NCBI GenBank assembly: GCA_000310025.1
Contig: FN649733.1
Coordinates: forward strand, 3,123,956-3,147,575
Direction: 5' to 3'
DNA: 23,620 nucleotides
Source of the DNA: Ectocarpus siliculosus
Taxonomy: Eukaryota; Sar; Phaeophyceae; Ectocarpales; Ectocarpaceae
Within the stretch, counting starts at the first letter, position 1. Every line of letters begins with the position of its first letter. A program made the translations under genes and the position numbers. Under the pieces are notes generated by a model. It was not told the origin of the DNA, did no database searches, and saw only the letters and a list, made by a program, of their open reading frames with translations. This document shows positions 350 to 23,360 of the stretch, one piece after another.

Positions 350-450
350 ATGGCTGGATCCAACAACGACAGCGGCGGGGGAGACGACATAGCGGCAGCA
401 GTGGCTCGAGAGCTGAACGATCTACGTCTTGTGTTCGCTAACATTGCCGG
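350..450 (+). CDS. Exon 1: N-terminus (residues 1-34)
   Basis: The exon opens with MAGSNNDSGGGDD, a Gly/Asp-rich start, followed by a short helix (VARELNDLRLVFANIA). The ATG context is gcaATGg. The donor is GTGAGG at 451 and leaves phase 2, which the first base of exon 2 completes as Gly. No acceptor AG lies close upstream, so this is read as the first coding exon. Confidence 0.75.
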
Positions 451-3400
451 GTGAGGTTGCTTTGCGCGCGAGAGAACATTACAACGTTCAAACCATGATA
501 CAAAATCTCGGAACATTTCAGTCGTCGATACATTGTACAAGCAGGGTTTGTACATGTAGTCCCTGCTCCGCTTCGCAGAAGAGGGAGGATGTGTCCATGT
601 TGCGGGCGTGAGAAGTAAATATGAGATGGTGCCATGCAGTGACATGTGCGCGCGTCTTGCGTTTTGAAGGGCCCAACAATCGCATCTCTGCTTCGGCAAA
701 TGGGCAGCGCGCAATACCATTCATTCCCACAGGAGTCAGTCATTTTTAGGGTGGAAGTGTTGCAAGTCGTCCGTGGAAATATTTTACTCTGCAGCTTTTA
801 GACTATAGACCACGTGCCGAAGAGACGAAGACGAAGCAGTATGCTCACATGTAGTCAAATCATAACTGTCTTGTCGAGCCTGTTACCCACAGGGGAGATA
901 TCGCTGTTTGCTGCTCGGGGAACCGTAGAAAAATAGAAGTTGGTCACCGTGCAACACCAGATGTACCACGGACTCTCAGACTGTCTGTGGAAGATATTGG
1001 ATTTGTTGTGTTCTTTGTATGCGTATGACAGATCCATCTACATACTTGTACATCTATGCATATGCCAAGAAAAAATGTGCCTGGAGCACATCTCTCTTGG
1101 TACATATGTTGGTCGCTTCAAGTAGACAGGCTCTTCAACGCTAGTGTGCATAATGTAATTAGTAGTCGACGTTTTTTATTGACACACACATCATTCTCAA
1201 AGCCCGACAGCGTGTTCACGGCTGTCTTGACGGGGCGCCAATCACCACTATTTACATCATCATTGTTGTGCGCTCGTGGCCCCGGCACTACTCGTGTCGC
1301 TGCATGCAAGCAATCTACGTTCTTGTTCCCAGTTTTATCACTTAAAACATCGCAATATGGCAGCAGTCGAGCACCATTTGCATTGTATTATTACCCCTGA
1401 AGTTCTCGACCAACATCGTCCGTATGTACACACACCACGAACGCCAGGTACAAAAAGTTTGTGGGACTTCGGAGCGTCCTCAAGCTTAAAGAGGTCAAGG
1501 CGCAGATCGCGGAGGGCGATGTCTACGTGGAGGATCTGGAGAGCGCCTGGCTTGAAGCGTGCGCTGTGAAGGTGACAGGTCGGCTGTGAGGTTTACCGAA
1601 GACCGTTCGTGCCCATGTTGCGTGGATTCAATCCTGCTGGCATTTCTTCCCCATACCATGGAGGCCAGACCGACATGATAGGAGTTTTCTGTGCGACCAC
1701 GGCTGGTCCACCCAAGCAAGCATACCGAAAGTTGTAGCCCCAGATTCCCAGGACATATTAATTCGATATGTTTTTCTTTTACGCACTTGTTGCCGCCATG
1801 AGACTCGGTATTGCTTGCAGCAGCGCCCATCAAGCATGAAAAAAGGCTTGGACGTCATACTCTTGGCTCTTCTCCTTCCTGTGCCAACCTGCATTCCGTT
1901 TCCATACGGGATAAACCCGACTTGAAATTTCAAACTGCAGCAGTAGGCTCTGATAACGCCTGACAAATCGTGGATCACACAATATTTTTGAGGCGTTCCC
2001 TCATGTGGCATGTGTAGCAGGGGTTGCTGGGGTTACAGTAGTTAGTTTTTCAACTTGCGGTGTGTAGTTTGTGTAGCAGGAGGCGAAAACTACATGGAGG
2101 TACAGGACATCCACGAAGCTCGGAAAACAGCCGTCAGTGTGGAATATCTTTCACTGAAGAGAACTCAACGGAAACCGCGACTTCTTTCCCCTTGCATGAA
2201 GTGCGGTATCTGTGAAAACGGTGGGAGAATACCATGCACTATTACTGAAGCATGCCAACATGTCTAGACCATGCCCCTTGTTTTTTTCCCCCTTTTTTTT
2301 TACCGAACGAAGGGGGTCTCGTCTGTGGACCCCGAGGACGGCAAGGGAGGCACGCACCACGTCCACCAGCGGTCATCGTGGGGGGTGTGCACGGAGCTAT
2401 CCTTCGAAGGCTTCGTGCACTTTCTTAGGCTGTGCGAGGAGAAGGCTTCGCTCTCAACCGGTGAATAACATCTGTTGCTAAACAAATGGCGGTATGTATT
2501 GCGCACAGACGCGTTTGTTTGCGTTGCGTTGTCGTCGACACCGGGATTGTTCCGGGAGAATGTAGTGGTGTGCAACAGCTCGCCCGAAGGGGTCCGTTTC
2601 GACGGATTCATGACAGAATGGCTAGTCCTTTTTCGTGGTGTGTCCTGCGTTGCGTTGACTTGATTTGTTGTGTCTCTCGTGTCATCGTGGTTTCGTATCG
2701 CAGTTGCTGGCATGCCTTGTCGATCAAACTGTTTGTCTGAACAAATACAACGAGGCTTTGTGTTTCGCCAAAACCCGTCAGTAACCCTTGTTGCGCAAAC
2801 CTTGCTGTGTCATAGAACGTTGAACCGGCTCCGTGGGTACATAGCCTGGCGATGTGACGCGGCACGTGTGTTGCCCCAATCCGCACGCTTGTTTTACCGC
2901 TTTGTGTGTGCTTTGCGGTTAATTTTCACATAATCTTCCTTTTCTTGAGCTTGTCCCGCCCACCCGTAAATTGTCGACAACACACAAGACTTTTCGAAGT
3001 GTTGACTATTCCCATTATGCAAGTTCTATTCCTCTTTCTGTTTTCGAAACCCGAAACGTCTTCAACACATGCACAACGCATCTTGTGTTCCCAAGAAAAA
3101 CAAAAGGTTGAGCTCGTTCGTCACACTCTGTACTTACCTTCTTACCACCTCTTTTCTTTTGTCGGATTAACACGGTTTTCGTACGTTTTCTTTTCTTTTC
3201 AGACCTGGCGACGGCGACTGAGGCTTCTCCCAAAGACCCTGCGACCGGGCGCGACCTCGTGGCGGCGAGGCACCGCATGGTCGGCCTGCTGCGCGCCACC
3301 CTCACGGTCCACCAACGGGGGGGGGGCGGAGAAGAAGAGGTGCGTTACCTTAACTTTTTTTGTGTGTTTTCAACTAATAGACAAGACAGATTGGACTACT

Positions 3401-6400
3401 GTTGGTCACCGAGGTGTATTTGGCACGTTTCGCACCCCCTAGCGTGCACCTATATAGCTGTGCATGCAGCTTGGCCGAAGGCAAGAATCAGTGTCTCAAA
3501 TTCCCATGTCCTCTGGCGACTCCGAGTCTCCCTTACTTCAGTAGCTGAGTCTCGCTAATTTTCCAACCAAGACTATTTAGTCACTTGGACTCCATCCCGC
3601 TACTACTGCTCTGATCCCGATTCCCACGTTCTTCTTCTTCGTCGTCCTACTCCCCCCCCCCCCCTAGGAGATCGAGCATCCCGCTGACCTGAACGCTCCG
3701 CTCGGAGAGACGCTGCACTCGTCGATGGTGCGCGCCGCCGTTGAGGAAGGTTTGGCGCACCACAACCCGGACGTGCTGCACGAGCTGATGAGGACTGGGG
3801 TGTACAAGGAGTCGGAGGAGGGAGTGCAGCTGGATCGGGATGAGAAAAAGGTAGCGTACTGATTCATGTCCTCAACGTCTCGGTGTACCTTAGAGGGAAA
3901 CGCGTTGACGCCTAAAGGCCGAGGTTTTGTGAAGATGAGCACGGCTGTGAGCTAGGGCGTATTGCTCTGCTTGGACGTTGTGGCGCCTCGCCAAGCGCGC
4001 CTCGCCAAGCGCATAAGGAAAGGCGATTCCTGCGTACATCTGTGGGACCAAGACGTTCGAAACGGTTTGCTGTCTCGCGAGTGGGGAACTTGTACTCAAA
4101 GAGCCGGCAGGCCATGCAAAAGCTGCATGGTGCTGCGTCTGTCTGTTCTCATGGGCCATCATATCTCCGCCTGTCTGTTTCTTTCTGTCTGTCTGCCTGC
4201 CTCTCTCTATTTCTCTCTCTCCGCCTTTACCTCTCGCTGTCTCGCTCTCCCTCTCTCCCTCTCTTCCTCTGTTTTTCTCTCTCTGCCCGTTCGCATGTAT
4301 ATATCGCTCTTCCCCCCCCTCTCTCTCCCGCTGTTGCGTGTCGGCTCCCCCTCGTTCCCCGCGTTCGACCAGGCCTCCCTGCGGCACGGCCTCCTAGACA
4401 GGAAGTTCTCCCACCACGACCTCGTCCGCTCGGGCATCATCCTCAAGGAGCAGACGCCGGGACAGCTCGCCGGCGAGAGGGCTCTAGCCGCCAGCCGCGT
4501 GTCACGGCACTTGCAACAGCGCAGCGCCGGGCAGTGCCGGGGATTTTCTCCTTGCCGGGGGCAGAAACGGGGTTTCTACTGCTGCGGCGGTGAGAGGGGG
4601 GGGGGGGGGGGCGTACTCATTTGTTGCTTGCCGTAGTCATTTGACCATTGACCACGCGTCCCTTTCGAGACGGAGCACCGTTCCTACCCCTACTAGAGAC
4701 ACCACCAACATTTGGGAGCTCTTTACGTTTCTGCCACAAACTCCATAAAAATTTCTTGCACATCTTATCCCCGTCCTCTAGGGCCTCTTGTGCCCACCAT
4801 CTATCCCCAATTATCGCGATCGTTTTTTCGCTGTTGTCTAATTTACCAAACTTGTCCATGTCACACCCTCTCTGTCTCATTTCCTCCTCGAGATCCTCTC
4901 TTTCCTTCCTGTACAACTCACACTGCGGGGGTGTACTCATAGTCGTGCATGCCGTAGTCGTTAGACCGTTGACCTCGCATCCCTACAAAGCCGGGACAGA
5001 GCACGCCGGGTTCTCACCGGACCAGGCTCTCGCATCACCAAGCGCGAAGCGCCGTGAGGTATTCGGCGAGTCGCATGAAGGGTGCCGCTGCATCCTGCTA
5101 AGGGTGTTCGGCATCTTGTGCTTACTTCCTTGCGTACGGATGACAGCTGCGTATGACTTAATTTATTTTCTGGTGCTTTCATTTCCAGAGACAGTTAAAA
5201 GCACTGTGTAACTGCCTCGAGGGTGCTTGACCAATGTAACACGACGTGGTGCGATCATCCCCTTTGCGCGGAGTGAGGGTTCTTGACCCCGCACAACATA
5301 ATCAACTCGACCACCATTCACAGTTACCGCAAAAAAGAAAAAACAAAGGCAAGAAAAAAGCGGTAACCTGGTTGTCGATCTCACGAAGTGATCGGCTTGT
5401 TTTACAACATCGCTGCCAAGCGACGAAAACGGAGGGGGGGGGGGGGGTACTAATGTTTTTCGCATGCCTTAGCTGTTGACCACGCGTTCTCGAGAGGAGG
5501 AGGGGTTTGTCGTTTTCGTTATTGTTGTGGCTGGCTGGTGTTAGTGTTTCGGATTGAAAAAGGCGCGGGCGAAGAGAACGAGAGATTTTTGTCAGGTTTG
5601 CTGAGTGTGCTGGTGGGGGCTGCTAACTCTTTGGCAACAACGGCAACAACGTAGTTTAGATCGCGATAGACGTGACAGTCGGAAACGTGAGGTCTTACTG
5701 ATTTGCAACGTGGTTGGGTGGTGATGCTGCTGTACATCAGGGCTGGAGGAAATAATTTGAGTCCGGGTACGGACAGCCAGTCAACCAGCGATCCAGCCCC
5801 TATCCGTCTGGATGTGTGTGGCGTTGTCGGGACCAGGGTTTTTTGTGGTATGTTTGCCACGAGCTGGCTAAACTGGAGAGGTACTTAGTATGTCCATTTA
5901 CAAAGGAACATCTTCCACTTGCTCTCAGCAATAATAACTTAAAACCCCCAATGTTAAAACGCGTACGGTCACAAGGAGGACAAGAAAACGATAAGTCTTG
6001 GGAAATGAATCAACTTGTTGTCCGTCAAACCTCTGTGACTACCGGAACACCACCAGCACGCTGAGGAGCATCGTTTGAGTGACGGCGTGCTCCTTTGTGG
6101 CGGCCCGATATTTTAGGCATTGAAGAGAGGGAAATCAAGAACCCCCGTCACACACGCGATGGGAGAATAGTTGAAGCCTTGTTGATCAGCTGAGACAAAA
6201 TAGTATAGAGGCGTTTTTTCCACCTTGGCGTTTCGTTGGTGGTCTCCGAAGGCAAGCGAAAATCGAGCAACTACTACATAATACCATGATCAGCTAAGGA
6301 ACTACAATATATTGTCCTGCTGTATTTCCTGATTTGGGGGTTTTCTAATCACAAACGCCTTGCTGTCTCAATCAAAAGCTAGAAGAATATTGGCCACGCG

Positions 6401-9400
6401 CCTAACACTATTCGCTTTGTGCTACGGACGCACGACAGGGCCAACATCGCCGCCACCCCTCCCTGGATGAGCTTAAGGCCCGGGGCATCTATCGCACCCC
6501 CGAGCAGCTGGTGGAAGACGAGAAGCAGCACAGGCTGGCGCGGGCCTTCCTCGAGCAGGGGCTTGGCCACAGGTGGGTGGACATGACCACGGTGCTAACG
6601 GTGTTGTCGTTGTTGGCTCTCGTTGTTGTTTTCGCTTCCTGGCACTTGTCCGTAGCTCCGTGGTAATCCTGAGGATGGAGAAACGACTTCCCTATGGTTG
6701 CATATGCGTGGTTATTCCGGCGAAGTGCGAGCCTTCGTTTCAACCTGCTCTCCCAGGGGGTATCACACCCGAATCGCTGACAACATATTATGGGTTTTGT
6801 AGCCGGTACGAATGCATCTTAGCTTTGCCTTCGTGGCCTACTTTGCCGCCCCTCGAACCCGTTCGGTAGTTGTACCCGTCAACAGAGACAGGAAGGCATC
6901 AAGAAAATACAGAGGCAATGTTAAATAAAAAACTGACGGAGACCCAGCAGAACAGATAAATAGACGGCAGAGAAAGCGGACCGAGAAAAGAAGCAAGCGA
7001 CAACAAGCACGTATGAAGGTCGGCGAGAGGGGTATTCGTGCATGTGCTGCTGCCTTGGACACATGTTCCGTGTGATATCTCCCCGCGAATGTTGACAGCC
7101 ATCACGAGAGCCTGGGCACAGGGAAAACGCGTAGATGTGCGTGCCAATAGAGAGCTGCACGATTGCTTCGTTGCTGTCAACTCCAGTTCAAGGCGAAAAA
7201 TGTTGTGATCGACCGCGCTAACCGGCTGACCAATGAAAAGACGTCAGCCTCAGTGTGTGTCTATGCGTGTTTTTTTTTTGTCGACCGCGTTAACCGGCTT
7301 ACCAACGTATTGTGTGTGTCTCTCGCGTTTTTGAGCAAGCAGGGCCAATATTTCCGACCTGAAGGAGAGAGGGATCTACCTCAGCCAGGAAGACCGGGCC
7401 AAGCAGAGCCTCCAGAGGGCCATGCTGGGCGATGTGATAAGCAAGTCGTTCAGAGAACGCCCCTACAGGTATAAAAAACAATTTCACACCCACACCTTTT
7501 GGCTTGGCTCTTGTCAACTTGGCATTCGTTTCTTGTTGGTCGTTGCTTTGTTTGTCGGCGAGAGAGGCGTTATTGCTTGGTTCTCCTGATCATACTTTAC
7601 CGATTTCATCGCGGGTGACCCCCCCTTCACGGCGGAAGGGGCGCTTCATATCGTATCTGGGAATTCTCTGTGATTCCCCCAACCGGGCGGCCCCCTGGAT
7701 GCATTGCTTGCCCTCAGGTTTGCTGCGACTATCGTGGGCCTCTGCCTGTTGATTACTCGCAGTTCGAATGTTGTCAGAGGTCGATTGGGTCAAGGAGGAG
7801 ATCTCACAAGTCTAGGTCATGCTGTAATGTGGTTGGAGGCGCCACAGCCGTGACGGGGATGTGGACACTACATGGCATGCATGCCCTTTCACCGCTCTTT
7901 CTCCGTGCACGTTCTAGAGAGCAACATGCATCAAACAAGCACGCAAGTACGGTGCTTTTTGTATTTGCTGTTGATAAATAGTGCTGTTGCTCCTCCACCT
8001 GCTGCTGTTGATTTTTTCTTCGCCACTGTTGTTTTTTTTATGACGATGGTGGTGATGGTGGCGGCGGTGGTGACTTATTTTTTGCCATGTGTTGGCTGTC
8101 GTGAATTGTACTCAAGAGAGGACCTGATGGACCGCGGGGTGCTGGAGGCGTCTCAGCTGAAGAGCGCCTTCGAGACTCTCGAGAAGGAGCAAGGCGGGCC
8201 GATCAAGACGGTCGACGACGTGCTGAAGTGGCCGCTCGTCGCCACCGCGGTCAAGGAAGGAGTGGTGGGTTCTTGTAGCCGCAGCCGCACAAATTCATGA
8301 GGAGCGTGTGTCTGTACTCGTGGCCGTACTTGTACATGCCGTGGGAGGGGGGGGGGGGTGCCAATGGTCATGAGTACCCCGGAGTCTTTTGACCTCGAGT
8401 AACGGCAGAGCAGGCATGAAGTAGGCCGTTTTTCGCACGCCAGGCTTGCAAAGCACCAAGCTCGTCGTAGCCCCGCTTGGGGTTCGCGAAAATTTGAATG
8501 AAAGGCGAGCTTCACCCTTGCAGGGACCGCTTGTGGGAGGTCTTCGATGACCTTCAGTTACTTTGTTTGGTTTGCCTGACACAGCCGTGCATGGCATAAG
8601 AAACGACCCTAAGCGAAAGGTGAGGGGGTCTTTAGTGTAGGTTGGACAATGTTGAGCGGCTCACGAATGTTAGACGGACCAAAACGAAAAGCATTAAGCA
8701 TTTGGGTCGGCGTGAACGGAGGTTCTCGTCACTCGTCATGTATGGAATTTTTGCCAATGAACGCACGTCCTCTCGGTATGGGTCGTCGGGAGTTAGCGTT
8801 ATTCAACGAGAATTTCCCGGGTACAGTCATGACGATGTGTACCACGTCCCGGTCCCGGCGAACGCAGAAGCCTTTTTTTTTTCGTCCTACTCTGACTTCT
8901 CTACAACGTACCGCTCAAGCCTGGCCAAGCAGAAGCTTGGTGTTTTGTGCGTATCCGAACCTCTCGAATTGCCTGGACGGACTTGAGTATTCTTGTCGGT
9001 GGTTCTATTGTCGTTGTTGCTTTCACGGGAAATGGTCGCCTTTCGCTGTACGCCGTCACCACGGCAGTATCAATCGTTCGAAGGTTATTAATTTTACCAT
9101 CGTGTCCTTTTCCGACTCATTTTTCCCTTCAAATGAACCCCGTCGGCAAGGAAAACGTAAGGTTTCGATTGGTCAACTCGAGCACACGTTGACTCACCGG
9201 CAAAACGTGGTCGAAAATTCAACCGACAGGTAAGAATGTCGGTCGTTAAGGACGCCTTTGCGATGGCCATGAAGACCCCCGATGGCGACGGCGACGGCGG
9301 CGGCGGCGGTGGTGGTGAAAGGCAGCAGATGAGCTACGAGGAGTTCGATAAGTTCCTGTCCTCGGCGGAGACCACACAGGTGAGTGAGTGGATGACTTCC

Positions 9401-15400: not shown

Positions 15401-18400
15401 GAACACAGGCATAGGCACCACCCATGAAACAGATACTGTAGATACGACGACGTTCTGGCCTTTATACGAAATCACACTTTTTTTTGCTCTCGCGTCCTCT
15501 CGCTGCCTCGTCACTACCGTATCTGCGAACTCTTTCGCGTTTTCCCTGGCGCAACAATGTTACCAAAGAGGACGACACCGCTGCAGCATGGCCTGGAGCG
15601 ACAGTTGATCGAGAAACGCCTTTCAAGATCTCTGCGAAATCCCCTGCGGCCCTCCAAGAAAGACCTGGTTGAACACGGTATCTACATCGACGCCACCCCC
15701 AGGGAGTTGCAGATGGAGGTAAATGGATCCCTTGGCGACAGAACATCAAGACTGTGTTCATATTACTATTCGTTCGATTCGCAGAAGAATTAACGCTTGG
15801 AGCACCGGGGGCGGGGGGGGGGCTCGCAAACGTGACCACAGCTTCAACCAATGTGCAACGATGGGCCTCTCTCTTGCAAATCGGTTGTTATTCGTCATAC
15901 CTTTTAATACCCGCCGCCTGCGATGTCTTCCGACCGTACAGTCTTGCCCGTGTTGACCATAGAACTTTTGCCGCCGCCCCCTCCCCTCTTGTGTTGCTAC
16001 GTACCAATAGATTTATCGCACAGCGTACCTCTGAGGTAACCACAGATCGGGTCCTACAGGAAGCTACAACAGCACAATATTGAAGAAATTGCCTGTGTAT
16101 CCGCTCCCCGTATCGTTCACACTTGTCGCACCTGTGTTCTGGTCCGTCTTGCGAGAAAGCATACTGGGGTTAACGGTAAGAAGAGCTAGAGACGTCTCTC
16201 GGTCGGTCGAGACTTCGGTTAAGCCGCGATTGCTGTTTATTCCACAGACGAACGAGCAAGGAAGATCACCCTTGACTATTATTCCATTCCTTGTCAGCAG
16301 GTACCACCGCGTTGTTGTAGACTCGTCGGTCGCATGGCCGACCCCTCCGTTCAAACCACACTCGTGCCACGGATTGTTGCTATCATGGTTGTGGTGTTCG
16401 CAGCACTACCTGGCTACTCGAAACCTCAAGCACGGCCTCGAGCGGCGGGAGTCGATCCAAGACCTGAAGGACCACGGTGTTTATCAGGTCAGACACGGAC
16501 GGTGTCGGGCAGTCTTTCTTGTACTCTTCGTTGCGCTTCTTTGCCCACCAGGGCGATGGTCTTCGCTCGTATTGTCCACGATGTCTTCATCTCTTTCTGT
16601 GACCATGGGCGATTGTCGTATCTCGTGTTGTCCACAATGTTTTTCATCTCTGTCTGTAACCTCGGGCGCCGGTCTTACCTCAATGTCTTCGTCTCCTTCC
16701 TTCTAGATCAGCAACAGCCGGCCTACTCGTACGTAGCCCATGGACATAAAACCGTTTTCGCCACCTTTTTGCATTTTGTTGTCTCGTTCTCCCGGCACAA
16801 AGCAACGTACACCGTGCCCTGCGCGCGGCTCACGAAAAGCAGGTCACTATTGTACGAAGGAAACGGTGCCGACCATGTCTTGGGCTCCTGCTGAATGCCT
16901 TAACACCGACACACCTCATTTTCTCATGCCCCAGCGAAAAGCACGTTTCCACGAAGGAAATGGTGCCTACCATGTCGTTGGCTCGGTTGCTTAATTGACA
17001 CACCGCGTTTTCTTGTGCCCCTAACGTTTACTTTTTTTTCCCTTGTTTTGCTTTGTCATCTTCGATGCGTCTCTTGTTCAGCCCGAGAACAGTCTGCGCG
17101 CGGCCCACGAGAAGCTGCTGATCAAGGCGCTCCTCCAGCGTAAGCTGTCGCACGCATTTTCGAGGGAGGAGATGGACCGCCTGAAGCAGAAGGGCGTGTA
17201 CAAGGAGGCCGAGCACGAAAAGCTAGAGGCGGAACGCCTCCTGGTCACACGCCAGGTAGGTCTCGTTCGAGGTGTTTGCCTTTTTTTTTTAAAGATCATG
17301 AGCTCTCTCACGACTTTCTATGAGTCTGACGACTTTCGAAGACGTCGGACACTAGATCAAAGATACTTGTGACCTACTATAATACAGCTACAGAAGAGTT
17401 GTCGCTACAAATATTCTCAGTCGTGGAACCCCCCCCCACCCCGGTCTAACAACTAAGACAGGCAAAACTTGAGACGACTCCCCCCCCCTCCCCACACCAC
17501 TGCATCCTGCTCGGCACGACACGATAAACAGCTTGCCCGGCTCGTCAGCAAGCGCCCGGACCCCGCGCAGCTGGAACAGGAGCACCCGGAGCTGATGAAG
17601 GCCGGGACCCTGGCCCTAGTCTTCGAGGAGAGGGTCATGCCCCGTGCGGCTGCCGGTAGCGGTGCTGGTGCTGGTGCTGCGACGGCCGCGGAAGCTGGTG
17701 AAAAGGAGGGGGAGGTTGTCGCTGAGAGCGGGGGCGGACCGGAACACCTGGTGTCGTTCGACGGGCTGTTGACCTGGCCGGACGTTCAGGTGATAGATAG
17801 CCTGGTGGGAAGATATGGCTGCTGGTAAATGGTTGTCGTTGTTGCTGGAGGTGGTTACTCGCAACTGCTGCCCGGGTATGCTGTACCTGGCGGAAGACAT
17901 GGCTGCTATTTAGTAAGGTTATCATTGTGGCTGCTATTTAGTAAGGCTATCATTGTGGCTGGAGTGGTTGCCTGCCACTGCTGTTGCTGACGCCTGTATG
18001 CACATAATCTGTAGACGCGCTGCTCTGTACCCGTCTGCACTCGGAATATCTCAGTGGAAAATTGCCGAAGCTTGAGTCGCACCCTTAATTATATTCTTGT
18101 ATTCCACAAGCCCGACGGTCGTTTACAGAATTGTGTCTCGCGCATGAACAACAGTTAGTTTGGCCTTCATCTCGCGAGCGATTACGGCGTTTCTTCGCGT
18201 TCGTGGTGCCCTTTCGTGTTTCGGCTCCATTCCGATCGGATCCATCGCAGATTTCGAACCTGCGACCATTCTTCCCCCACCCGGTGCTGTGTACACTCTC
18301 TTGCGTGTTTGGTTGGTCGGCCTTCGTTTGTCTCCGAGAACAACAGCAACAACCGACAACATGAGCTAAATAAACACCGAACAATAACACACATACATGC

Positions 18401-21400
18401 GACACATCGCCCACCAGGATCATCTTGTCGGAGAGGGCGGAGAGGACACCAAGCACGAGATGGCCCGGCACTTCGATCTGTGCGACTCGGACGGCGACGG
18501 TTACATTACCTTTAGCCAGTTCCTCCGCTGGGTAGAGCTGTGCGACCTCGACCCCGACGACCACCTGCAGGCGGGTGTCGTGCTCTGAACCCCCCCCCCC
18601 CCCGTCCCAATAACGCCATGTCTGAGAGGAGAGGACAGGGGTGCAGAAAACAGGATCTGGGAGGGGTGGTTGGAAAGACACGAATTTCGGCACGAGTCGG
18701 TGTGACTTTGTACGCAGCCCAATGTCCAAGCCTAGTCATTCCTGTTATTGGTGGAAACTTACGCCGAAATCCGAAACACAGCAGTGCAGAGGGCCCCGCC
18801 GCAGCCCCCCCCCCCCCACACACCGCTCTTTGAACCACAACGATGCTGTTTGGGAACACTCAATGTTCGCGCATGATACAGCGTCCCTGGGACCCCCACA
18901 AGCGACGGAGGTTACTGTTTCTCGTGACAAAAAACTGTTATTTCAGTGAGCGTTTTCTTGGAAGGAAGGAACACGCGCATTATTTCCTTGCTTGGCGCCC
19001 CCCGCCACTGCAAAACTGAAACAAGTGCTGCACTGGCATCGTATCACATGGGGTACGGTAGTCGTGGGTCGGCCCTGGCACCCAGCACGTCGTTGAAGGT
19101 ATCAGTGGGGACTGTCCTTCATGACAAATTTTAAGGCGAACGAGTTCATGGTTCAGCTGGGGTGCATGTTTGTTTCGCCTCCAATACTGCTGCAATTTTT
19201 GTCGTCGTCTGACCCCCTCTGATGTGTCCCTTTTCCCCCCTGCTCTCGGCGGACGGCGACTTCTCTACATTTTTTCAACTTGATATTTGCAGGTGACAGA
19301 CTCGAACCTGGATGCCGAGTACGCGCGGTTGGAAGGCGCCAGCGGAAAGTGGGGGTGAGTCAAAACCAAACATGGAAGAACACACGTCCAGAACATTTGT
19401 TTGTAGAAACGACGGACTGATTAGGCGTTCATTGCCTCCCTCGCCTTACCATCTCCCGGTCTTTGGGAATCAGCCAAATCGTGTTCAATGAAGACGGAGG
19501 CTGAACCATGCGGCGTTTCATGCAGGGCATCAACCGGGCCCCGTCCGCACGCCCCACATCTGACTTGAGCCCTCTTGGTTGTTTCCGTCTGCTGCACCCG
19601 CGTTTTTGGGCGGGGGGGTTGCTTCGCCAAAACACAAAACACAAAACACAAAACACAACAACAACCAATGACGACGACAACTTCGACGACGACGATGACT
19701 GCGACAGGGTTACCCTTGACCAAGCGCTGTCATACCCACTCGTCAAGCGGTGGGTCGCCTCGGCATCTCTCGATCGTGACGCCCTTAACGCCATGTGGGG
19801 GATGGGGGCTGGCGAGGGGGGCTCCGCCGAGGGGAACACGAAGCAGTTGGACGGTTTCAAGGTGGGATATAATAAAAAGAGCCGGTTTGATTGGTTTTTC
19901 CTTGTTTGCGGCACCCCGACAACGATTTGGCCGAGGGCACTTGGACAACAAGAGTTACTCTCACCTACCTGACTGGCTGCCGGATGCGGCAACGACATGA
20001 TGTCTAAATCCGCTTTGGTGGGGATAGTTGTCGACACGTACCGTCTCCTGCCGGGTGGGTCGAGAGCGGCGCGTTCTGCGTCACGCCGCTCAGGCGGATG
20101 GTCGGTTCGGACGCGCATGTGGAAGGAGATATGAGAATGCCTTGTTTGTGTTTTTGTGCAGCACAAGCACATAAGACAGTTTACGCATATAGCCATAATC
20201 AGATGATTTGGCGTGCGTGCTTTTATATCTAAGCGAGGGAGGGAGGGAAGGAGGGAGCGACCGCCAGATTCGCCATGGGCCGAGTCCTTTTCTCCATCTC
20301 TTCTTTGGGTTAAAGCCGACAAGAAAATTTCGCTCGGGTGCCTCCTTCCCTCCGCTCCCTCCTCCTAATGTTGCCCCCCCCGCCTGCTTGTATCGCATGT
20401 GCGGGATGGGAGAGGAGAGGTTGCCGAAAATAGTATGGGAGGCGAAGTGGGCAAACAAAAAAGAGGGGTAGACAACCCACGGAATGGGTCAAGGTTGTAG
20501 AGGACGTATGGAAGGGGTTAGACATCGACGAAGATGAAAAGCTGGAAACGGAGGGTCTACAGGGGTTCAAGGAGAAGATATCTGTTGCTTGTGCCGAGAG
20601 AGAAGAACAGAATCTAAGGAAAGGAACCAACGATAAGGAGGGTCTAGAAGTGTACGGAATGTTGAAAGAAGGAATAGGGTTCAAGGATTACCTACATGGA
20701 CCAATGGATGCAGGGACAAAGCTTGAGGTCAAATTCAGGACCGGGGACATAGGCCTTCGAGAACGTCGACGAAGACATAGGACGGTAGACGACGAAGACG
20801 ACGAGTTCAAATGTGATTACGGCTTCGAATGCGAAGACCGTGTTCATGTAGTCGCGGAATGTCCGTGGTACGAAGAGGAGAGGGAAGTGTACATGACTGA
20901 GCTGGGAAAAATACAAGGGACGTACAGGGAGATGTTTGAGGCATGGAATAGAGAGGAGAGGACGGTAGCTGTACTGGGGAGTAGGAAGTGGTTTGAAAAG
21001 GCGGGAAGGGATATCGTTAGGATAGACAGACTAGGGAAGACATTTTTGAACCACCTTTGGCAAAGTAGGAAGGAACGATTGGCCATCGGTGATCGGTCCT
21101 GTGGGAACAATGCTCCGTCCTCTCGAAGACGCGTGGTCAATGGTCTAACCGCTAAGGCACGCAAAACATAAGAGTACGCCCCCCCCCCCCGCCTGCTTGT
21201 CTCTGCTGTGTCCATCAGTCTTTCTGCAGGCATTGCGAGGCGAGGTCATCCGCTGCCCACCAGATGCGCCACAAGGAGCTCTTGGCCGACGCTGCAAAGA
21301 AGGAAGCCAAGGTAATCCCACTCTGCTGGACGCGAGTGCGGCAGGGCTCGGATTGCGTGCATGTCGGGAAGCGCAGTTTTTGCGTTGGTCACACACGTCT

Positions 21401-22447
21401 TTTGTCTCGTACTTTCGTACCTTGTTTTTGTTAAGTATTTGGACCACGGAAGTTGGATTTGAACTTGTTGGTTGCACAGGCATGGAGACGTGCACTTGGA
21501 GATCCGAAGATTGCCAGACACAGCATGCGAGTTTGCGTACTCACAGCAGTGCCCCGCATGTTACGAGACAACTCAACTTTGGACAAATGGCAAAGTTTTG
21601 GACACATGCAAAAGTGGCAAGCCTTTGGAAGCGTTTCCCGCATGATGCGTAACGTGCGCGCAGATCAACATCGTTCCCGTTGGCGTTAGACATACTCCCC
21701 TCACGTGCAGCACCTCGGAGAGGTCCTCGCGAACTGGTGAAAAGGTACCACGATAGCCGGAAATCCCTTCACCGTGTGTGCATTGAATAGAGTGCGCACA
21801 CACATACATCCGCCCGAAGCGGTGCCTTGAGCTCTTTTCTTCCTTCGTTTCTCCCCACGTGTGCCTGTTTCCTGTACGTGCCACACGCCACACCACGGCA
21901 CGCCACGCGTGCCACAGGCCAAGGAAGACCTCCGCGCCACAATGGCCGCCAAGTTGAGCGCCCGGCCTGACCTTGACAAGCTCAAGGAGAGCAGGTACAA
22001 ATGCACTGGAAGCACAGCCTACAGTACACAAGTTTGCATTGCTTTTTGCGGCACTGCTGTACTTGTTAGCGCGCGAATAAATATTTTGACCGCAAGCTAA
22101 CACCGCTCTTAATCTTGCACACCGTGTCCATTTCGGATCGAGTGGAACTCTTATTAACGTTCATGCGTGGCGAACAAACGACAATTTGAACGCACGTGGG
22201 TCTACCTGCCTCAACACACCTCCCCGTCTCCCCTACAAGCACCGATTCTCCCCATCCCTACCGATAATAACCACTATATGCAATGAACGAAAACAATGGC
22301 AGGATCTACCGGTCGGGCGGCCTTGACCCCGCCATGGTCCACTTGGAGCGCAATCTTATCGCCATCAGCCTGAAGGAGCAGCTGCTGGCGAGACCGGCGA
22401 TCGAGGACCTTGAGAAGCGGGGCATTAAGCCCAAGGACGGAACCAAG
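350..22447 (+). CDS. Giant 28-exon RPEL-repeat / EF-hand-like protein gene (3' end open)
   Basis: One multi-exon gene spans nearly the whole window. Joining the 28 exons listed below gives 4,026 nt in one open frame (1,342 residues), with matching intron phase at all 27 junctions. The protein carries about 18 RPEL-like motifs, for example RPALAELSHKGVYL (residues 544-557) and LLARPAIEDLEKRGI (1321-1335), and five EF-hand-like modules (about residues 22-120, 391-455, 597-708, 1106-1165, 1193-1244). In animals RPEL motifs of MRTF and Phactr proteins bind G-actin, and EF-hands bind Ca2+. The inferred role is therefore a Ca2+-linked multi-site actin-monomer scaffold. No signal peptide, membrane segment or catalytic domain is visible. 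The start was chosen because the ATG has a purine at -3 and G at +4 and its exon joins exon 2 in phase. The last exon is uncertain. I do not recognise a named orthologue. Confidence 0.85.
1448..1571 (+). CDS. Exon 2: first half of EF-hand-like module E1 (residues 34-75)
   Basis: The acceptor is ccag/GTACAA and the donor AAG/GTGACA, phase 0. It encodes VKAQIAEGDVYVEDLESAW. This aligns with the first-helix segments of the other E modules (hydrophobic residues, then x-x-G, then a Leu/Val and Ala/Trp-containing helix). There is no Ca2+ loop in this half. Confidence 0.85.
2313..2460 (+). CDS. Exon 3: second half of module E1 (residues 76-124)
   Basis: It encodes an acidic DPEDGKGG stretch, then LSFEGFVHFLRLCEEKA, the F-x-x-F helix typical of the end of the E modules. 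The DPEDGK segment stands where an EF-hand loop would be but lacks the D-x-D-x-D-G pattern. The donor CCG/GTGAAT leaves phase 1. The acceptor is acgaag after a T-rich tract. Confidence 0.85.
3203..3339 (+). CDS. Exon 4: linker between E1 and the first RPEL array (residues 125-170)
   Basis: A classic acceptor (ttttcttttcag) and the donor GAG/GTGCGT bound it. The first two bases complete Asp with the last G of exon 3. It encodes a helical segment (LVAARHRMVGLLRATL) and ends in GGGGEEE. The four glycines come from an in-frame run of ten G, a likely slippage spot. Confidence 0.85.
3340..4372 (+). other. Introns 4-5 (3340-3667, 3851-4372)
   Basis: Intron 4 (328 bp) ends in a 14-C polypyrimidine tract. 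Intron 5 (522 bp) has a long CT/CTGT-rich microsatellite from about 4140 to 4330. The opposite-strand open frames there (Arg/Glu/Gly-rich) are products of that simple repeat, not genes. Confidence 0.65.
3668..3850 (+). CDS. Exon 5: RPEL-like motif R1 (residues 171-231)
   Basis: R1 lies at about residues 190-218: VEEGLAHHNPDVLHELMRTG followed by VYKE. It matches the L-x-x-R-P-x-x-x-x-L-x-x-x-G-V-Y pattern, with HN in place of the usual RP. The exon is 61 codons, phase 0 on both sides. Its polypyrimidine tract is almost pure C (14 C before tag). Confidence 0.9.
4373..4498 (+). CDS. Exon 6: RPEL-like motif R2 and start of R3 (residues 232-273)
   Basis: R2 (about 234-255) reads LRHGLLDRKFSHHDLVRSGI. 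The tail GERALAAS starts the next repeat. The only donor that keeps exon 7 in frame is CGC/GTGTCA at 4499, a weak site. The frame stays open downstream, so the true end could differ. The large following intron holds retrotransposon fragments. Confidence 0.75.
4596..4925 (-). mobile_element. Retrotransposon 3' fragment in intron 6, minus orientation, C-terminal coding remnant
   Basis: On the minus strand an open frame (4940-4617) contains GDRWWAQEALED and FLWSLWQKRKELP. These align with GSRKWFEKAGRD and FLNHLWQSRKERL of the copy at 20392-21182. Both are followed by the RVVNG terminus and then the homopolymer (here 16 G at 4596-4611 on the plus strand). It lies antisense to the host gene. Confidence 0.8.
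4927..5010 (-). mobile_element. Second, abutting retrotransposon 3' end in intron 6
   Basis: The sequence gtgtactcat-agtcgtgcat-gccgtagtcg at 4931-4960, then ttagaccgttgacc, matches the family 3' end on the minus strand and has a 5-G run at 4927-4931. It sits directly behind the fragment at 4596-4925, so two copies are in tandem or nested. Confidence 0.7.
5434..5500 (-). mobile_element. Third retrotransposon 3' end in intron 6
   Basis: A 14-G run (5434-5447) is followed by tactaatg, gcatgccttagctg and ttgaccacgcgttctcgaga. This is the same terminal sequence on the minus strand. The homology stops after about 65 bp. Confidence 0.7.
6439..6572 (+). CDS. Exon 7: RPEL-like motif R3 and start of R4 (residues 274-318)
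   Basis: R3 ends as RRHPSLDELKARGIYRT, a good RPEL core. The exon then runs into LARAFLEQGLGHR, the first half of R4, and is cut by a phase-2 intron (AG/GTGGGT). The acceptor gacgcacgacag has only a modest pyrimidine tract. Confidence 0.85.
7208..7234 (+). repeat. 27-bp dispersed repeat, copy 1 (intron 7)
   Basis: The sequence starting atcgaccgcgctaaccgg is the exact reverse complement of 12561-12587. A diverged direct copy lies at 7281-7306 (tcgaccgcgttaaccggctt then accaac). Similarity to the distant copy continues weakly beyond the 27 bp. Confidence 0.85.
7343..7468 (+). CDS. Exon 8: end of R4 and start of R5 (residues 318-360)
   Basis: It completes R4 (ANISDLKERGIYLS) and starts R5 (MLGDVISKSFRERPYR), which has a true R-P pair. 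It has phase 2 on both sides. R4 and R5 are thus split by introns at equivalent points, just after the R of the motif. Confidence 0.9.
8117..8264 (+). CDS. Exon 9: end of R5 and first helix of module E2 (residues 360-409)
   Basis: It completes R5 (REDLMDRGVLEA), then a helix, then VDDVLKWPLVATAVKEGV, the W-P helix that marks the E modules. The donor is GTG/GTGGGT at 8265. A donor three bases earlier would also keep frame. Confidence 0.88.
9230..9379 (+). CDS. Exon 10: second half of module E2 with Gly-rich loop (residues 410-459)
   Basis: It encodes VVKDAFAMAM, then a loop PDGDGDG expanded by a run of Gly (GGC/GGT repeats), then MSYEEFDKFLSSAE. The position and spacing fit an EF-hand whose loop was stretched by trinucleotide expansion. 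Ca2+ binding cannot be assumed. The donor CAG/GTGAGT is close to consensus. Confidence 0.9.
9955..10046 (+). CDS. Exon 11: degenerate RPEL-like motif R6 (residues 460-489)
   Basis: It encodes LKLWALMRMRPELEDQEH. It contains R-P and upstream leucines but lacks the terminal L-x-x-x-G-I, so R6 is the weakest motif of the array. The acceptor is cggcaag after a C/T-rich tract; the donor CGCAG/GTGTGG leaves phase 2. Confidence 0.75.
10741..10807 (+). CDS. Exon 12: first half of RPEL-like motif R7 (residues 490-512)
   Basis: A 67-bp microexon enters in phase 2 and ends in phase 0. It encodes LIARGLEEELGKREPLERL. Exon 13 supplies ANKGIYLE, completing a full motif across the junction. That continuity supports the short exon. 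The donor is CTG/GTAAGC. Confidence 0.85.
11214..11351 (+). CDS. Exon 13: end of R7 and complete R8 (residues 513-558)
   Basis: After ANKGIYLE (end of R7) comes a spacer, then R8: LAHGLAHRPALAELSHKGVY, one of the two clearest RPEL matches. The acceptor has a long T-rich tract ending ttttgcag; the donor GAT/GTGGGT is phase 0. Confidence 0.92.
11610..11954 (+). repeat. Tandem repeat of about 45 bp in intron 13, reaching the exon 14 acceptor
   Basis: About six diverged units share a core like tcaagatgcgcatgattct followed by a ctctgtacgt-type stretch and a gcacacag-type end. Clear starts are near 11618, 11733, 11780, 11828, 11865 and 11912. The first two are spaced wider and belong to a longer unit. 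The last unit ends in the cacacag used as the splice acceptor of exon 14. Confidence 0.75.
11955..12068 (+). CDS. Exon 14: RPEL-like motif R9 (residues 559-596)
   Basis: R9 is YLEGTLSLRPTIDTLQDKGY plus LE, a near-consensus motif with R-P intact. The exon is 38 codons, phase 0/0, with donor GAG/GTACGC. Confidence 0.92.
12561..12587 (-). repeat. 27-bp dispersed repeat, copy 2 (intron 14, inverted)
   Basis: Perfect 27-of-27 reverse complement of 7208-7234, 5.3 kb away in the same pre-mRNA and close upstream of the exon 15 acceptor. It may be a relic of a dispersed repeat family. Confidence 0.85.
12623..12958 (+). CDS. Exon 15: EF-hand-like module E3 in one exon (residues 597-708)
   Basis: This is the largest exon, 112 codons. 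It holds a leading helix (ADELEEAFTELVLEY), a Ser/Gly linker, WAPVRKMLRSGTAMEEDV (equivalent to the W-P helix), a degenerate loop region GQDGKDAAM, and the closing helix IDFVGFLEFIHTL. The spacing matches E2 and E4, but the loop lacks a D-x-D-x-D series, so it is probably structural only. Confidence 0.9.
13147..13246. other. 100-N assembly gap in intron 15
   Basis: Exactly 100 N sit between a C-rich stretch and a run of at least 23 C. A round 100 usually marks a gap of unknown length, so sequence and possibly an exon could be missing. Exons 15 and 16 still join in phase 0, so no exon needs to be assumed. Confidence 0.95.
13248..13320 (+). mobile_element. Retrotransposon 3'-end remnant in intron 15
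   Basis: The core cggtctaacagctaaggcaa (13281-13300) followed by an 11-C run (13310-13320) matches the 3' end of the retrotransposon copy at 20392-21182. A longer C-run precedes it. Only about 45 bp of homology is visible next to the assembly gap. Confidence 0.6.
13413..13555 (+). CDS. Exon 16: acidic then basic linker (residues 709-756)
   Basis: It encodes an Asp-rich stretch (KTDDHDDNDPE), then RRLEMRRKR at residues 737-745, a basic cluster that could act as a nuclear localisation signal. In MRTF the nuclear signal lies within the RPEL region and is masked by actin; any parallel here is inference. The acceptor cgtgaaaag is weak, the donor GG/GTGAGT strong, phase 2. Confidence 0.78.
13585..13637. 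repeat. CT-rich microsatellite in intron 16
   Basis: Interrupted (CT)n/(CTGT)n sequence just after exon 16, of the kind also seen at 4180-4280 in intron 5. Simple-sequence DNA with no coding potential. Confidence 0.8.
13876..14039 (+). CDS. Exon 17: RPEL-like motifs R10 and R11 (residues 756-810)
   Basis: R10 begins LKEHLLAHLRARPKKDDPE, with R-P intact but an atypical second half (TQRIAKEF). R11 begins LLKNRLEGHLRSRAA and runs into an Ala/Ser-rich spacer in exon 18 instead of a normal second half. Entry is phase 2, exit phase 1 (GCCG/GTAAGA). Confidence 0.88.
14081..14180 (-). mobile_element. Retrotransposon 3'-end remnant in intron 17, minus orientation
   Basis: Read on the minus strand, about 100 bp matches the last part of the copy at 20392-21182, including the caggaccgatcac equivalent near 14158 and the gaccacgcgt element at 14123-14132. 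The homopolymer at the 3' end is short here, so this copy is probably older. Confidence 0.75.
14212..14324. repeat. 76-bp-period direct duplication in intron 17
   Basis: A stretch starting ccttgggggggcatg and ending ctgcttccgt occurs at 14212 and again at 14288 with few differences. It is a local G-rich tandem duplication in non-coding sequence. Confidence 0.75.
14600..14702 (+). repeat. Diverged direct repeat around tagcgatagt in intron 17
   Basis: acacgcgtttttagcgatagt (near 14592-14612) recurs as acacgcctttgtagcgatagt (near 14676-14696), about 84 bp apart, with neighbouring aaacac/aaaaca. A weak local duplication upstream of exon 18. Confidence 0.5.
14807..15072 (+). CDS. Exon 18: spacer helix and RPEL-like motif R12 (residues 811-899)
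   Basis: It has a low-complexity start (SAAATSGSSKGG), a helix KELELAMNQRMMKHSLAAS that resembles the first half of a repeat, a Gly/Ser linker, then R12: LGGSLGRRSSLEELTNQGIF. The 88-codon body keeps frame from phase 1 to phase 0. Donor CAG/GTGTGC. Confidence 0.9.
15569..15718 (+). CDS. Exon 19: RPEL-like motif R13 (residues 900-949)
   Basis: R13 reads LIEKRLSRSLRNPLRPSKKD then LVEHGIYID. R-P is present with a few extra residues before the final L-x-x-x-G-I-Y. The tail (DATPRELQME) resembles the post-motif spacers of exons 6, 7 and 13. Acceptor accaaag, donor GAG/GTAAAT. Confidence 0.85.
16404..16487 (+). CDS. Exon 20: RPEL-like motif R14 (residues 950-977)
   Basis: An 84-bp exon made of essentially one repeat: LKHGLERRESIQDLKDHGVY. 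Both phases are 0, so it can be skipped or duplicated without breaking the frame. Acceptor gttcgcag, donor CAG/GTCAGA (weak). Confidence 0.88.
16551..16705 (+). repeat. 56-bp tandem repeat (about 2.7 units) in intron 20
   Basis: Units start with gggcg at 16551, 16607 and 16664 and share a ttgtccac-atgt-ttcatctct core. The third unit is partial. Non-coding; no function seen. Confidence 0.75.
16833..17021 (+). repeat. About 102-bp direct duplication in intron 20
   Basis: Two diverged copies start with cgaaaagca at 16833 and 16935 and share acgaaggaaa-ggtgcc-accatgtc, then gacacac and a c/ttcatgcccc-type end. It lies just upstream of the exon 21 acceptor tract. Confidence 0.7.
17082..17255 (+). 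CDS. Exon 21: RPEL-like motif R15 and start of R16 (residues 978-1035)
   Basis: R15 reads LIKALLQRKLSHAFSREEMD then RLKQKGVYKE. An amphipathic Glu/Lys-rich spacer leads to RLLVTRQ, the beginning of R16. Good acceptor (cttgttcag) and donor (CAG/GTAGGT), phase 0/0. Confidence 0.92.
17424..17490 (+). mobile_element. Retrotransposon 3'-end remnant in intron 21
   Basis: The core ggtctaacaactaagacagg followed by caaaact and a C-run (17480-17488) matches the shared 3' terminus of the family. Another C-run precedes it. The copy is very short and diverged. Confidence 0.6.
17532..17789 (+). CDS. Exon 22: motif R16, Ala/Gly/Glu linker, first helix of E4 (residues 1036-1121)
   Basis: It starts LARLVSKRPDPAQLEQEHPE followed by LMKAGT, an R-P motif with a four-residue insertion. 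A low-complexity linker (about residues 1074-1104, Ala-Gly then Glu-rich) follows. It ends with LVSFDGLLTWPDVQ, the W-P helix of module E4. The intron falls just after that helix, close to where E2 is split between exons 9 and 10. Confidence 0.9.
17903..17958 (+). repeat. 28-bp tandem duplication in intron 22
   Basis: The unit starting ctgctatttagtaagg occurs twice (17903-17930, 17931-17958) with one mismatch. It belongs to a wider stretch of degenerate gctgct/gttgttgctg repeats. Confidence 0.85.
18418..18570 (+). CDS. Exon 23: EF-hand of module E4, the only near-canonical loop (residues 1122-1172)
   Basis: It encodes EMARHFDLCDSDGDGYITF followed by SQFLRWVELCD. The 12-residue loop (1144-1155) has D at positions 1, 3 and 5, G at 6 and I at 8, but Q instead of E at position 12. 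Ca2+ binding is plausible but probably altered. The exon most likely ends at CAG/GCGGGT, a GC donor, because exon 24 then continues in phase 0. GT donors at 18577 and 18580 would also keep frame, adding two or three residues. Confidence 0.88.
18571..18572 (+). promoter_or_regulatory. Probable non-canonical GC splice donor of exon 23
   Basis: The sequence CAG/GCGGGT differs by one base from the common CAG/GTGGGT donor. The first GT downstream (18575) would put exon 24 in a poor frame. Two later GTs (18577, 18580) keep phase 0 but match the donor consensus badly. Confidence 0.5.
19293..19354 (+). CDS. Exon 24: short linker before module E5 (residues 1173-1193)
   Basis: A 62-bp exon with acceptor atatttgcag and donor GG/GTGAGT, both good. 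It encodes VTDSNLDAEYARLEGASGKW and joins exon 25 through a split Gly codon (phase 2). Confidence 0.8.
19629..19660 (+). repeat. 7-bp microsatellite (AAAACAC)n in intron 24
   Basis: About four units of aaaacac followed by acaacaacaac, then a GAC-rich stretch up to the exon 25 acceptor. Simple-sequence DNA. Confidence 0.85.
19708..19861 (+). CDS. Exon 25: EF-hand-like module E5, truncated (residues 1193-1244)
   Basis: It encodes VTLDQALSYPLVKRWVASAS then LDRDALNAMWGMG, aligned with the W-P helix region of E2 and E4 with Y-P for W-P. A Gly-rich loop and QLDGFK follow. The closing F-x-x-F helix is cut short at the donor AAG/GTGGGA. Upstream GAC repeats would read as poly-Asp if an earlier acceptor (for example at 19570) were used. 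Confidence 0.85.
20237..20255 (+). other. Possible G-quadruplex sequence in intron 25
   Basis: Four GGG runs (20237-20239, 20241-20243, 20245-20247, 20253-20255) are separated by 1, 1 and 5 bases. This meets the usual G-quadruplex pattern on the transcribed RNA sense. C-rich sequence near 20340-20368 could compete by pairing. Confidence 0.55.
20392..21182 (+). mobile_element. 5'-truncated non-LTR (LINE-type) retrotransposon in intron 25
   Basis: About 790 bp between the direct repeats. It encodes the C-terminal part of a LINE-like ORF and ends gctaaggcacgcaaaacata-agagtacg followed by a C-run. It is in the same orientation as the host gene. There is no poly-A tail; either the element ends in C or it inserted into a C tract. 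It is the longest and best-kept member of the family in this window. Confidence 0.8.
20399..21171 (+). pseudogene. C-terminal fragment of LINE-type retrotransposon protein, frameshifted
   Basis: From 20399 one frame reads GEERLPKIVWEAKWANKK. A frame change near 20470 continues as RQPTEWVKVVEDVWKGLDID and stays open to the stop at 21169-21171. Near the middle is a Cys/His group (KCDYGFECEDRVHVVAEC, C-X5-C-X4-H-X4-C) followed by PWYEEER. This resembles the CCHC-like region that follows the reverse transcriptase in many LINE proteins. No reverse transcriptase core is present. The fragment is truncated at the 5' end and is not functional. Confidence 0.75.
21240..21311 (+). CDS. Exon 26: helical linker after E5 (residues 1245-1268)
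   Basis: It encodes AHQMRHKELLADAAKKEAK, a charged helix. Two acceptors are possible. The strong one (tttctgcag, exon from 21230) needs phase 2 from the previous exon. The weaker one (ttgcgag, exon from 21240) joins exon 25 in phase 0 and is used here. The conflict could mean an undetected exon upstream. Donor AAG/GTAATC. Confidence 0.65.
21918..21994 (+). CDS. Exon 27: first part of RPEL-like motif R17 (residues 1269-1294)
   Basis: It encodes LRATMAAKLSARPDLDKLKE then SR, a near-perfect RPEL core. The phase-2 donor (GCAG/GTACAA) falls before the final I-Y, which exon 28 supplies. Confidence 0.9.
22303..22447 (+). CDS. Exon 28: end of R17 and complete R18 (residues 1294-1342)
   Basis: RIYRSGG completes R17. 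R18 is LKEQLLARPAIEDLEKRGI followed by KP, the clearest RPEL in the protein. The donor AAG/GTGAGA is good and phase 0, so the gene should continue. If the intron were retained, the frame would stop at 22540. Confidence 0.9.
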
Positions 22448-22778: not shown

Positions 22779-23050
22779 GCTCAAGGCTGAGGGCGCACCG
22801 CAGGCCTCCCAGCGGCCCCTCCGAGAGAAGCGGCGGGATTGCGCCTACTCTCAACTCGGTAAGATAGCGTCGAATTGCGGACCGCGACGCAGGGGCCGCC
22901 GCTCGCCCTCCCTCTCCTCGGAGACCGCGGGACGCCCTCTCTCAGCGAGACGCCGCCGCTCGGGGCTCCGGGCGTCCAGCGACGGGCGAGCTGCCCGCGC
23001 AGGCGGGACGGGTCAAAACCACGTCGTCGCACCTGCGTCTCCACGTCGGA
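22779..23050. other. GC-rich block with inverted repeats
   Basis: Base composition jumps well above that of the introns. Several potential stems are visible: ggacgccc with gggcgtcc (about 22930-22977), ggcgca with tgcgcc (about 22793-22843), gggc-gagct-gccc (22984-22996), and cgcaggcg with cgcacctgcg (about 22999-23038). A TATA-like gatatata lies just upstream at 22754-22761. It could be a structured RNA or a GC-rich repeat. I do not recognise a family. Confidence 0.4.
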
Positions 23051-23360
23051 CCCCTCCGCTCAGGACTGTAAAGAACAAGCGATCTTACTGGACGGGACTG
23101 TCTTCGGGGTATTTTTGAGAACTTGAGGTTATAAAAAAACTCGGAACATGTCTAAAATTAATGTAGCAACCATATATGCATAGCCCGCACATGTCTGCTT
23201 ACTACGAAATGGTTCGTAAGCGCTTTATGCACCATCCATCATGTGCCCATCGTGCGCTAGGGACTGCTGTGCAACACTGCTAACTTGCGATATGTGCGTA
23301 CGACCGCGCGGGCAAGCATCTCATCTCTCCCAAAAAGGTCAAAGGAACGGCAACTTGCAG

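Follow-up and report, generated by a model that had tools for sequence, protein, structure and literature searches.

A single gene of the brown alga Ectocarpus siliculosus probably encodes an RPEL protein that acts as a multivalent G-actin buffer, sensor or scaffold. It lies in a stretch of 23,620 nucleotides, the whole of which was analysed and is here called the window (contig 8, bases 3123956-3147575, of a genome assembly of 189 Mb in 492 contigs). The product would be a long chain, probably mostly helical, in which up to 19 RPEL-type units are arranged in tandem blocks separated by five modules resembling EF-hand pairs; its AF2 model is poor (pLDDT 43). Each RPEL block would hold several actin monomers next to one another, in the manner of the Phactr1 RPEL domain, and it is from such multiple occupancy that the proposed role follows. 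What we infer is G-actin binding, from the motif, together with multivalency in the cell and the buffering or sensing role.

The gene occupies positions 350-22447 of the forward strand. Its 28 exons, traced by eye and then checked by script, join in phase without a stop to give 1,346 residues. Every exon border has an AG acceptor and a GT donor, with the one exception of a GC donor after exon 23. The exons are as follows:

350-450, 1448-1571, 2313-2460, 3203-3339, 3668-3850, 4373-4498, 6439-6572, forward strand: exons 1-7
7343-7468, 8117-8264, 9230-9379, 9955-10046, 10741-10807, 11214-11351, 11955-12068, forward strand: exons 8-14
12623-12958, 13413-13555, 13876-14039, 14816-15072, 15569-15718, 16404-16487, 17082-17255, forward strand: exons 15-21
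17532-17789, 18418-18570, 19293-19354, 19708-19861, 21219-21311, 21918-21994, 22303-22447, forward strand: exons 22-28

The preliminary description of this DNA had read a single giant gene of 28 in-phase exons and 1,342 residues. The exon chain is borne out at the re-derived length, and this is one conserved gene, to which relatives align along nearly the whole length. tblastn searches with three of them (P0001, P0003 and P0004) recover the window exons individually. The acceptor of exon 26 was shifted from its place in the first model to fit the relatives, and a further in-frame exon at 22780-23118 was dropped because they have no counterpart of it. At exon 6, the tblastn match to the relatives extends past 4498 to 4531-4540, where the frame then disagrees with theirs. 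The model leaves this exon, whose 3′ end is uncertain, through a GT donor at 4,499, thus bypassing the frame break, and therefore lacks RPEL unit 3. Also missing are the relatives' conserved last ~86 residues, which include RPEL unit 19: apart from chance-level scraps, tblastn finds them neither in the window nor in ~57 kb downstream. They may have been lost or moved, or may fall in an assembly gap; the missing C-terminus and the frame break in exon 6 may each reflect an assembly fault, in a window that also contains a run of N (13147-13246), or real damage.

Nine relatives were found in all. An initial search yielded four (7,986 scored candidates); a profile of the full-length relatives then retrieved five proteins among 7,996 scored candidates, and a profile of the C-terminal half a further four among 7,998. 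They come from Scytosiphon, Ectocarpus, Pylaiella, Laminaria, Choristocarpus and EukProt, match the window protein wherever they overlap it, and carry unnamed-product labels or gene-model numbers in their database entries. P0001 (Scytosiphon promiscuus, 1,505 residues) and the two EukProt entries P0002 (1,453) and P0003 (1,461) reach 68%, 69% and 69% identity, respectively, in their best local alignments, over nearly the whole chain. Closer still are P0004 (Ectocarpus sp. CCAP 1310/34; 94% over 938 columns) and P0007 (Ectocarpus sp. 8 AP-2014; 96% over 320 columns). The relative from Choristocarpus tenellus, an early-branching brown alga, is 47% identical to the window protein, and in the Laminaria digitata model the N-terminal ~95 residues do not align. 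All seven species-named relatives are brown algae, the other two being the EukProt entries, in a search that scored only candidates sharing exact words and of a length in range, which limits inference on other lineages.

By profile, the repeats belong to the RPEL family. The Pfam RPEL model (PF02755) scores 28.9 bits against a cut-off of 23 (E 8.7e-07) in the first window model of 1,451 residues, the best stretch being residues 1313-1332 of that model, which is unit 18. Three relatives likewise exceed the cut-off (P0003, 36.5 bits; P0002, 29.5; P0005, 23.8) and five fall below it (P0008, 22.3; P0004, 22.0; P0007, 21.1; P0001, 20.6; P0009, 12.0), while P0006 has no RPEL match at E<=1. When pieces of P0003 are scanned singly, RPEL passes in blocks 4-6 (30.2 bits) and 17-19 (24.0), stays under the cut-off in block 12-16 (18.4), and has no match in blocks 1-3 and 7-9. 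The motif is short, and individual units here mostly score weakly. The most telling test ran the other way: a profile of 24 algal units, built without any animal sequence and run against the PDB (177,635 sequences), gave seven distinct matches at E<=10, every one a Phactr1 or MRTF/MAL chain, with a best E of 1.8e-06 as the sole match under 0.001 and the other six ranging from 0.017 to 9.7. The top phmmer match of the whole window protein is again Phactr1 (4b1z, E 0.0049). The expression R-x5-[LIM]-x3-[GRNS]-[IVYL], composed after the repeats had been inspected, has 11 matches within residues 1-1,339 of the first window model, where 2,000 residue shuffles gave 0.86 on average and 5 at most; one match per protein is off register in P0001-P0004. 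The RPEL identity first proposed from the letters alone is thus upheld by Pfam in the window and by the algal profile in the PDB.

There are 19 units in P0003 and 17 in the window model, which lacks units 3 and 19:

3761-3805, forward strand: RPEL unit 1, degenerate, HNPDVLHELMRTGVY (unit alignment)
4400-4441, forward strand: RPEL unit 2, degenerate, RKFSHHDLVRSGII (unit alignment)
6448-6492, forward strand: RPEL unit 4, HPSLDELKARGIY; its His is Arg in all four relatives that cover the unit
6568-7379, forward strand: RPEL unit 5, split by an intron (expression and unit alignment)
7455-8144, forward strand: RPEL unit 6, RPYREDLMDRGVL, split by an intron (expression and unit alignment)
10784-11231, forward strand: RPEL unit 7, split by an intron (expression and unit alignment)
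11304-11345, forward strand: RPEL unit 8, RPALAELSHKGVY (expression and unit alignment)
12024-12065, forward strand: RPEL unit 9, RPTIDTLQDKGYL (expression and unit alignment)
13910-13951, forward strand: RPEL unit 10, degenerate (unit alignment)
14027-14826, forward strand: RPEL unit 11, degenerate, split by an intron (unit alignment)
15028-15069, forward strand: RPEL unit 12, RSSLEELTNQGIF (expression and unit alignment)
15644-15685, forward strand: RPEL unit 13, RPSKKDLVEHGIY (expression and unit alignment)
16443-16484, forward strand: RPEL unit 14, RESIQDLKDHGVY (expression and unit alignment); Choristocarpus counterpart RETLEELKERRLF
17160-17201, forward strand: RPEL unit 15, REEMDRLKQKGVY (expression and unit alignment)
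17550-17597, forward strand: RPEL unit 16, RPDPAQL, without the GI end (unit alignment)
21960-22309, forward strand: RPEL unit 17, RPDLDKLKESRIY, split by an intron (expression and unit alignment)
22388-22429, forward strand: RPEL unit 18, RPAIEDLEKRGIK (best Pfam RPEL stretch)

The earlier count of about 18 RPEL-like motifs stands as a count of units, 17 in this model; only 12 of these keep the motif shape (units 4-9, 12-15 and 17-18), and five are degenerate (1, 2, 10, 11 and 16). Among the 12, the core Arg is present in 11 and replaced by His in unit 4. The core Arg and the hydrophobic end of RPxxxEL...(G/N)I occur together in 11 of the 17. Most units are spaced as in Phactr1, where both unit spacings in the 4b1z_M stretch are 38: neighbouring units of P0003 are 38-41 residues apart in 12 of 18 intervals. 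The remaining six measure 20 (units 3 to 4), 70 (11 to 12), 70 (18 to 19) and, across modules, 145, 198 and 249. For the degenerate units the register was assigned by eye, and the regularity of the spacing is therefore partly a matter of choice. Profile comparison of four repeat blocks relates five of the six pairs, at 72-96%; the sixth, block 12-16 with block 17-18, gives 6% or 22% depending on direction.

At units 5-9, 12-14 and 17-19, all rows with coverage have the core Arg, a count that omits P0006 at units 7, 8, 9 and 12 because the part aligned there is its unrelated N-terminus. Four of seven rows lack this Arg at unit 15, where P0003, P0002, P0006 and P0009 have Asn, Lys, Ser or Gly. 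Choristocarpus loses it at unit 15 and keeps it at units 14 and 16-19, with the Pro of units 17-18 lost. In Phactr1, substitution of the RPEL3 core Arg by Ala lowers G-actin affinity 18-fold, and replacing L519, a residue close to the hydrophobic ledge, by Arg reduces G-actin binding 3-fold, as described in PMC8629116.

The RPEL blocks are interrupted by five EF-hand-like modules:

410-2447, forward strand: module M1, residues 21-120, EF-hand-like; hhalign with M2 77%/46%
8127-9957, forward strand: module M2, residues 364-460, EF-hand-like; hhalign with M1 77%/46%
12623-12958, forward strand: module M3, residues 597-708, a single exon with weak resemblance to an EF-hand pair
17601-18570, forward strand: module M4, residues 1056-1169, an EF-hand pair by Pfam
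18484-18519, forward strand: the sole EF loop whose positions 1, 3 and 5 are all Asp, DSDGDGYITFSQ, with Gln at position 12
19293-21251, forward strand: module M5, residues 1170-1252, EF-hand-like, its predicted fold resembling EF-hand pairs

Module 4 is of EF type. Scanned alone, its copy in P0002 scores 32.4 bits with Pfam EF-hand_7 (cut-off 30). In the window protein it reaches 24.3 bits with EF-hand_6 (E 2.1e-05), under the cut-off of 25, and among full-length scans only P0004 attains an EF-hand cut-off (EF-hand_6, 25.1 versus 25). Module 5 resembles EF-hand pairs in its predicted fold, and the evidence for modules 1-3 is weak: Pfam has no match for M1 of P0003 or M2 of P0002 scanned alone, and a pooled profile of modules 1, 2, 3 and 5 matches only troponin C, in no case significantly. 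The preliminary description had five such modules, of Ca2+ type, in a set order among the RPEL blocks. Their number and order hold, with module 4 alone passing Pfam and only when scanned by itself; of the two profile families it had proposed to search, RPEL clears its cut-off in the window protein and EF-hand_6 does not. The designation as Ca2+-type applies at best to the one loop.

Position 12 of a Ca2+-binding EF loop is normally Glu, and changes from Glu to Gln there usually weaken Ca2+ binding strongly. Among the ten possible EF loops of the five pairs, Asp at positions 1, 3 and 5 is kept only in DSDGDGYITFSQ, where the three Asp and Gln12 are invariant in all seven aligned rows, Choristocarpus included, Gln12 being found in P0002 as well. 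None of the loops combines Asp1, Asp3 and Asp5 with the bidentate Glu12 of a Ca2+-binding EF-hand, and by eye the full ligand set is absent from the four other modules. Because only one loop has the three Asp, with Gln as its last ligand throughout, Ca2+ control of the protein is possible and doubtful, and is the weakest part of the earlier idea. Most likely, the EF-hand-like modules serve as structural spacers or protein-binding modules; module 4, at most, could sense Ca2+ or Mg2+. These loops make it unlikely that the protein is a Ca2+-gated sensor of actin monomers, whose EF-hand modules would change shape, switch RPEL occupancy and so couple Ca2+ gradients to the actin pool. Such gating would draw on the likeness of module 4 by Pfam, of module 5 by fold and, weakly, of module 3 to EF-hand pairs. 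It would also suit fucoid zygotes, in which an F-actin patch precedes the Ca2+ gradient and the gradient is itself actin-dependent, being blocked by actin-depolymerising drugs (PMC4261725).

Compared with known proteins, the algal protein is by its sequence an RPEL protein that is neither a Phactr nor an MRTF. It shares with Phactr1-4, whose RPEL domain is C-terminal, the RPEL repeats, the spacing of most units and the best PDB match. It has up to 19 units to their four, and EF-hand-like modules besides; Phactr proteins also bind PP1 (PMC8629116). An expression for RVxF-type PP1-binding motifs finds none in the window model, itself without its C-terminus; in P0003 it gives a loose match at residue 341 and another at 1209 (of 1,461), neither at the C-terminus; for this reason the protein is not assigned to Phactr. 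MRTF-A/MAL, MRTF-B and myocardin carry G-actin-binding RPEL motifs as the algal protein carries RPEL-type ones, and the algal repeat profile matches MRTF/MAL weakly (2yjf, E 0.31; 3tpm, 8; 3tpq, 9.7). MRTF and myocardin have two or three RPELs, a SAP domain and a role in transcription (PMC9900090). Since Pfam finds no SAP domain in the window protein (E<=10) or in P0001-P0004 (E<=1), the protein is not an MRTF either. Module 4 (by Pfam) and, tentatively, module 5 (by fold) resemble the EF-hand pairs of troponin C, calbindin D9k and centrin, from which they differ in that nearly all algal loops lack Ca2+ ligands and are set inside an RPEL protein.

Spire and Cobl are tandem WH2 proteins with several G-actin-binding motifs. 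The algal protein likewise has several tandem motifs of a G-actin-binding type, but the motif differs, and WH2 has no Pfam match at E<=10 in the window protein. A nucleator of this kind, with RPEL replacing WH2 in an array that aligns monomers to seed filaments and not to hold them, would account for the many tandem motifs and their mostly regular spacing of 38-41 residues. It is less likely again than calcium gating: to our knowledge, RPEL-actin assemblies are not filament-like, and RPEL and EF-hand are the only families that Pfam reports in the window protein at E<=10. RPEL motifs, moreover, are reported to occupy the hydrophobic cleft and the ledge that lie between subdomains 1 and 3 of actin (PMC9900090), which also counts against nucleation. 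Least likely are RPEL-like helical repeats that lost, or never had, actin binding and form a helical scaffold for another partner, a reading favoured by six degenerate units (1, 2, 3, 10, 11 and 16), modest Pfam scores and the scope for convergence in short repeats, and opposed by a repeat profile whose seven PDB matches are all RPEL chains and by the core Arg that Choristocarpus retains at all but one of units 14-19.

The preferred reading thus remains that of a multivalent protein that buffers, senses or scaffolds G-actin. A bolder version of it, speculative and unlikely as a whole, is a brown-algal reservoir of actin monomers that holds up to about 19 actins per chain, has its release tuned by the EF-hand modules, evolved apart from the Phactr/MRTF lineage of animals, and is tied to Ca2+-guided polar growth. 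The best reading is that an RPEL array interleaved with EF-hand-like modules is an undescribed architecture, as the preliminary description had supposed: no account of such an RPEL protein in brown algae, stramenopiles or oomycetes was found in a literature search whose scope left most subscription journals and preprints outside. The RPEL proteins treated in the available parts of PMC8629116 and PMC9900090 are mammalian and have two to four motifs. Brown algae acquired multicellularity independently, and a conserved protein with at least four times that number of units among them would extend the range of RPEL-based actin sensing, and research on brown-algal polarity would gain a concrete candidate G-actin regulator.

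The introns hold features of their own. Between exons 25 and 26 lies an open frame of 245 residues (20434-21171, forward strand) with a Cys/His-knuckle-like stretch; it has no Pfam match at E<=1 and by eye resembles what we take to be the terminal part of such a protein as non-LTR retrotransposons encode. Its own end belongs to a stretch, 21084-21193, of which 4598-4660, 5431-5477 and 14107-14176 are inverted copies, 78-86% complementary, so that the copies span the introns after exons 6, 17 and 25; they are possibly fragments of one retroelement family. A run of 100 N (13147-13246) in the intron after exon 15 adjoins a long C homopolymer, and a 46-nt tandem repeat in five copies (70% matches; 11732-11954) reaches the acceptor of exon 14.
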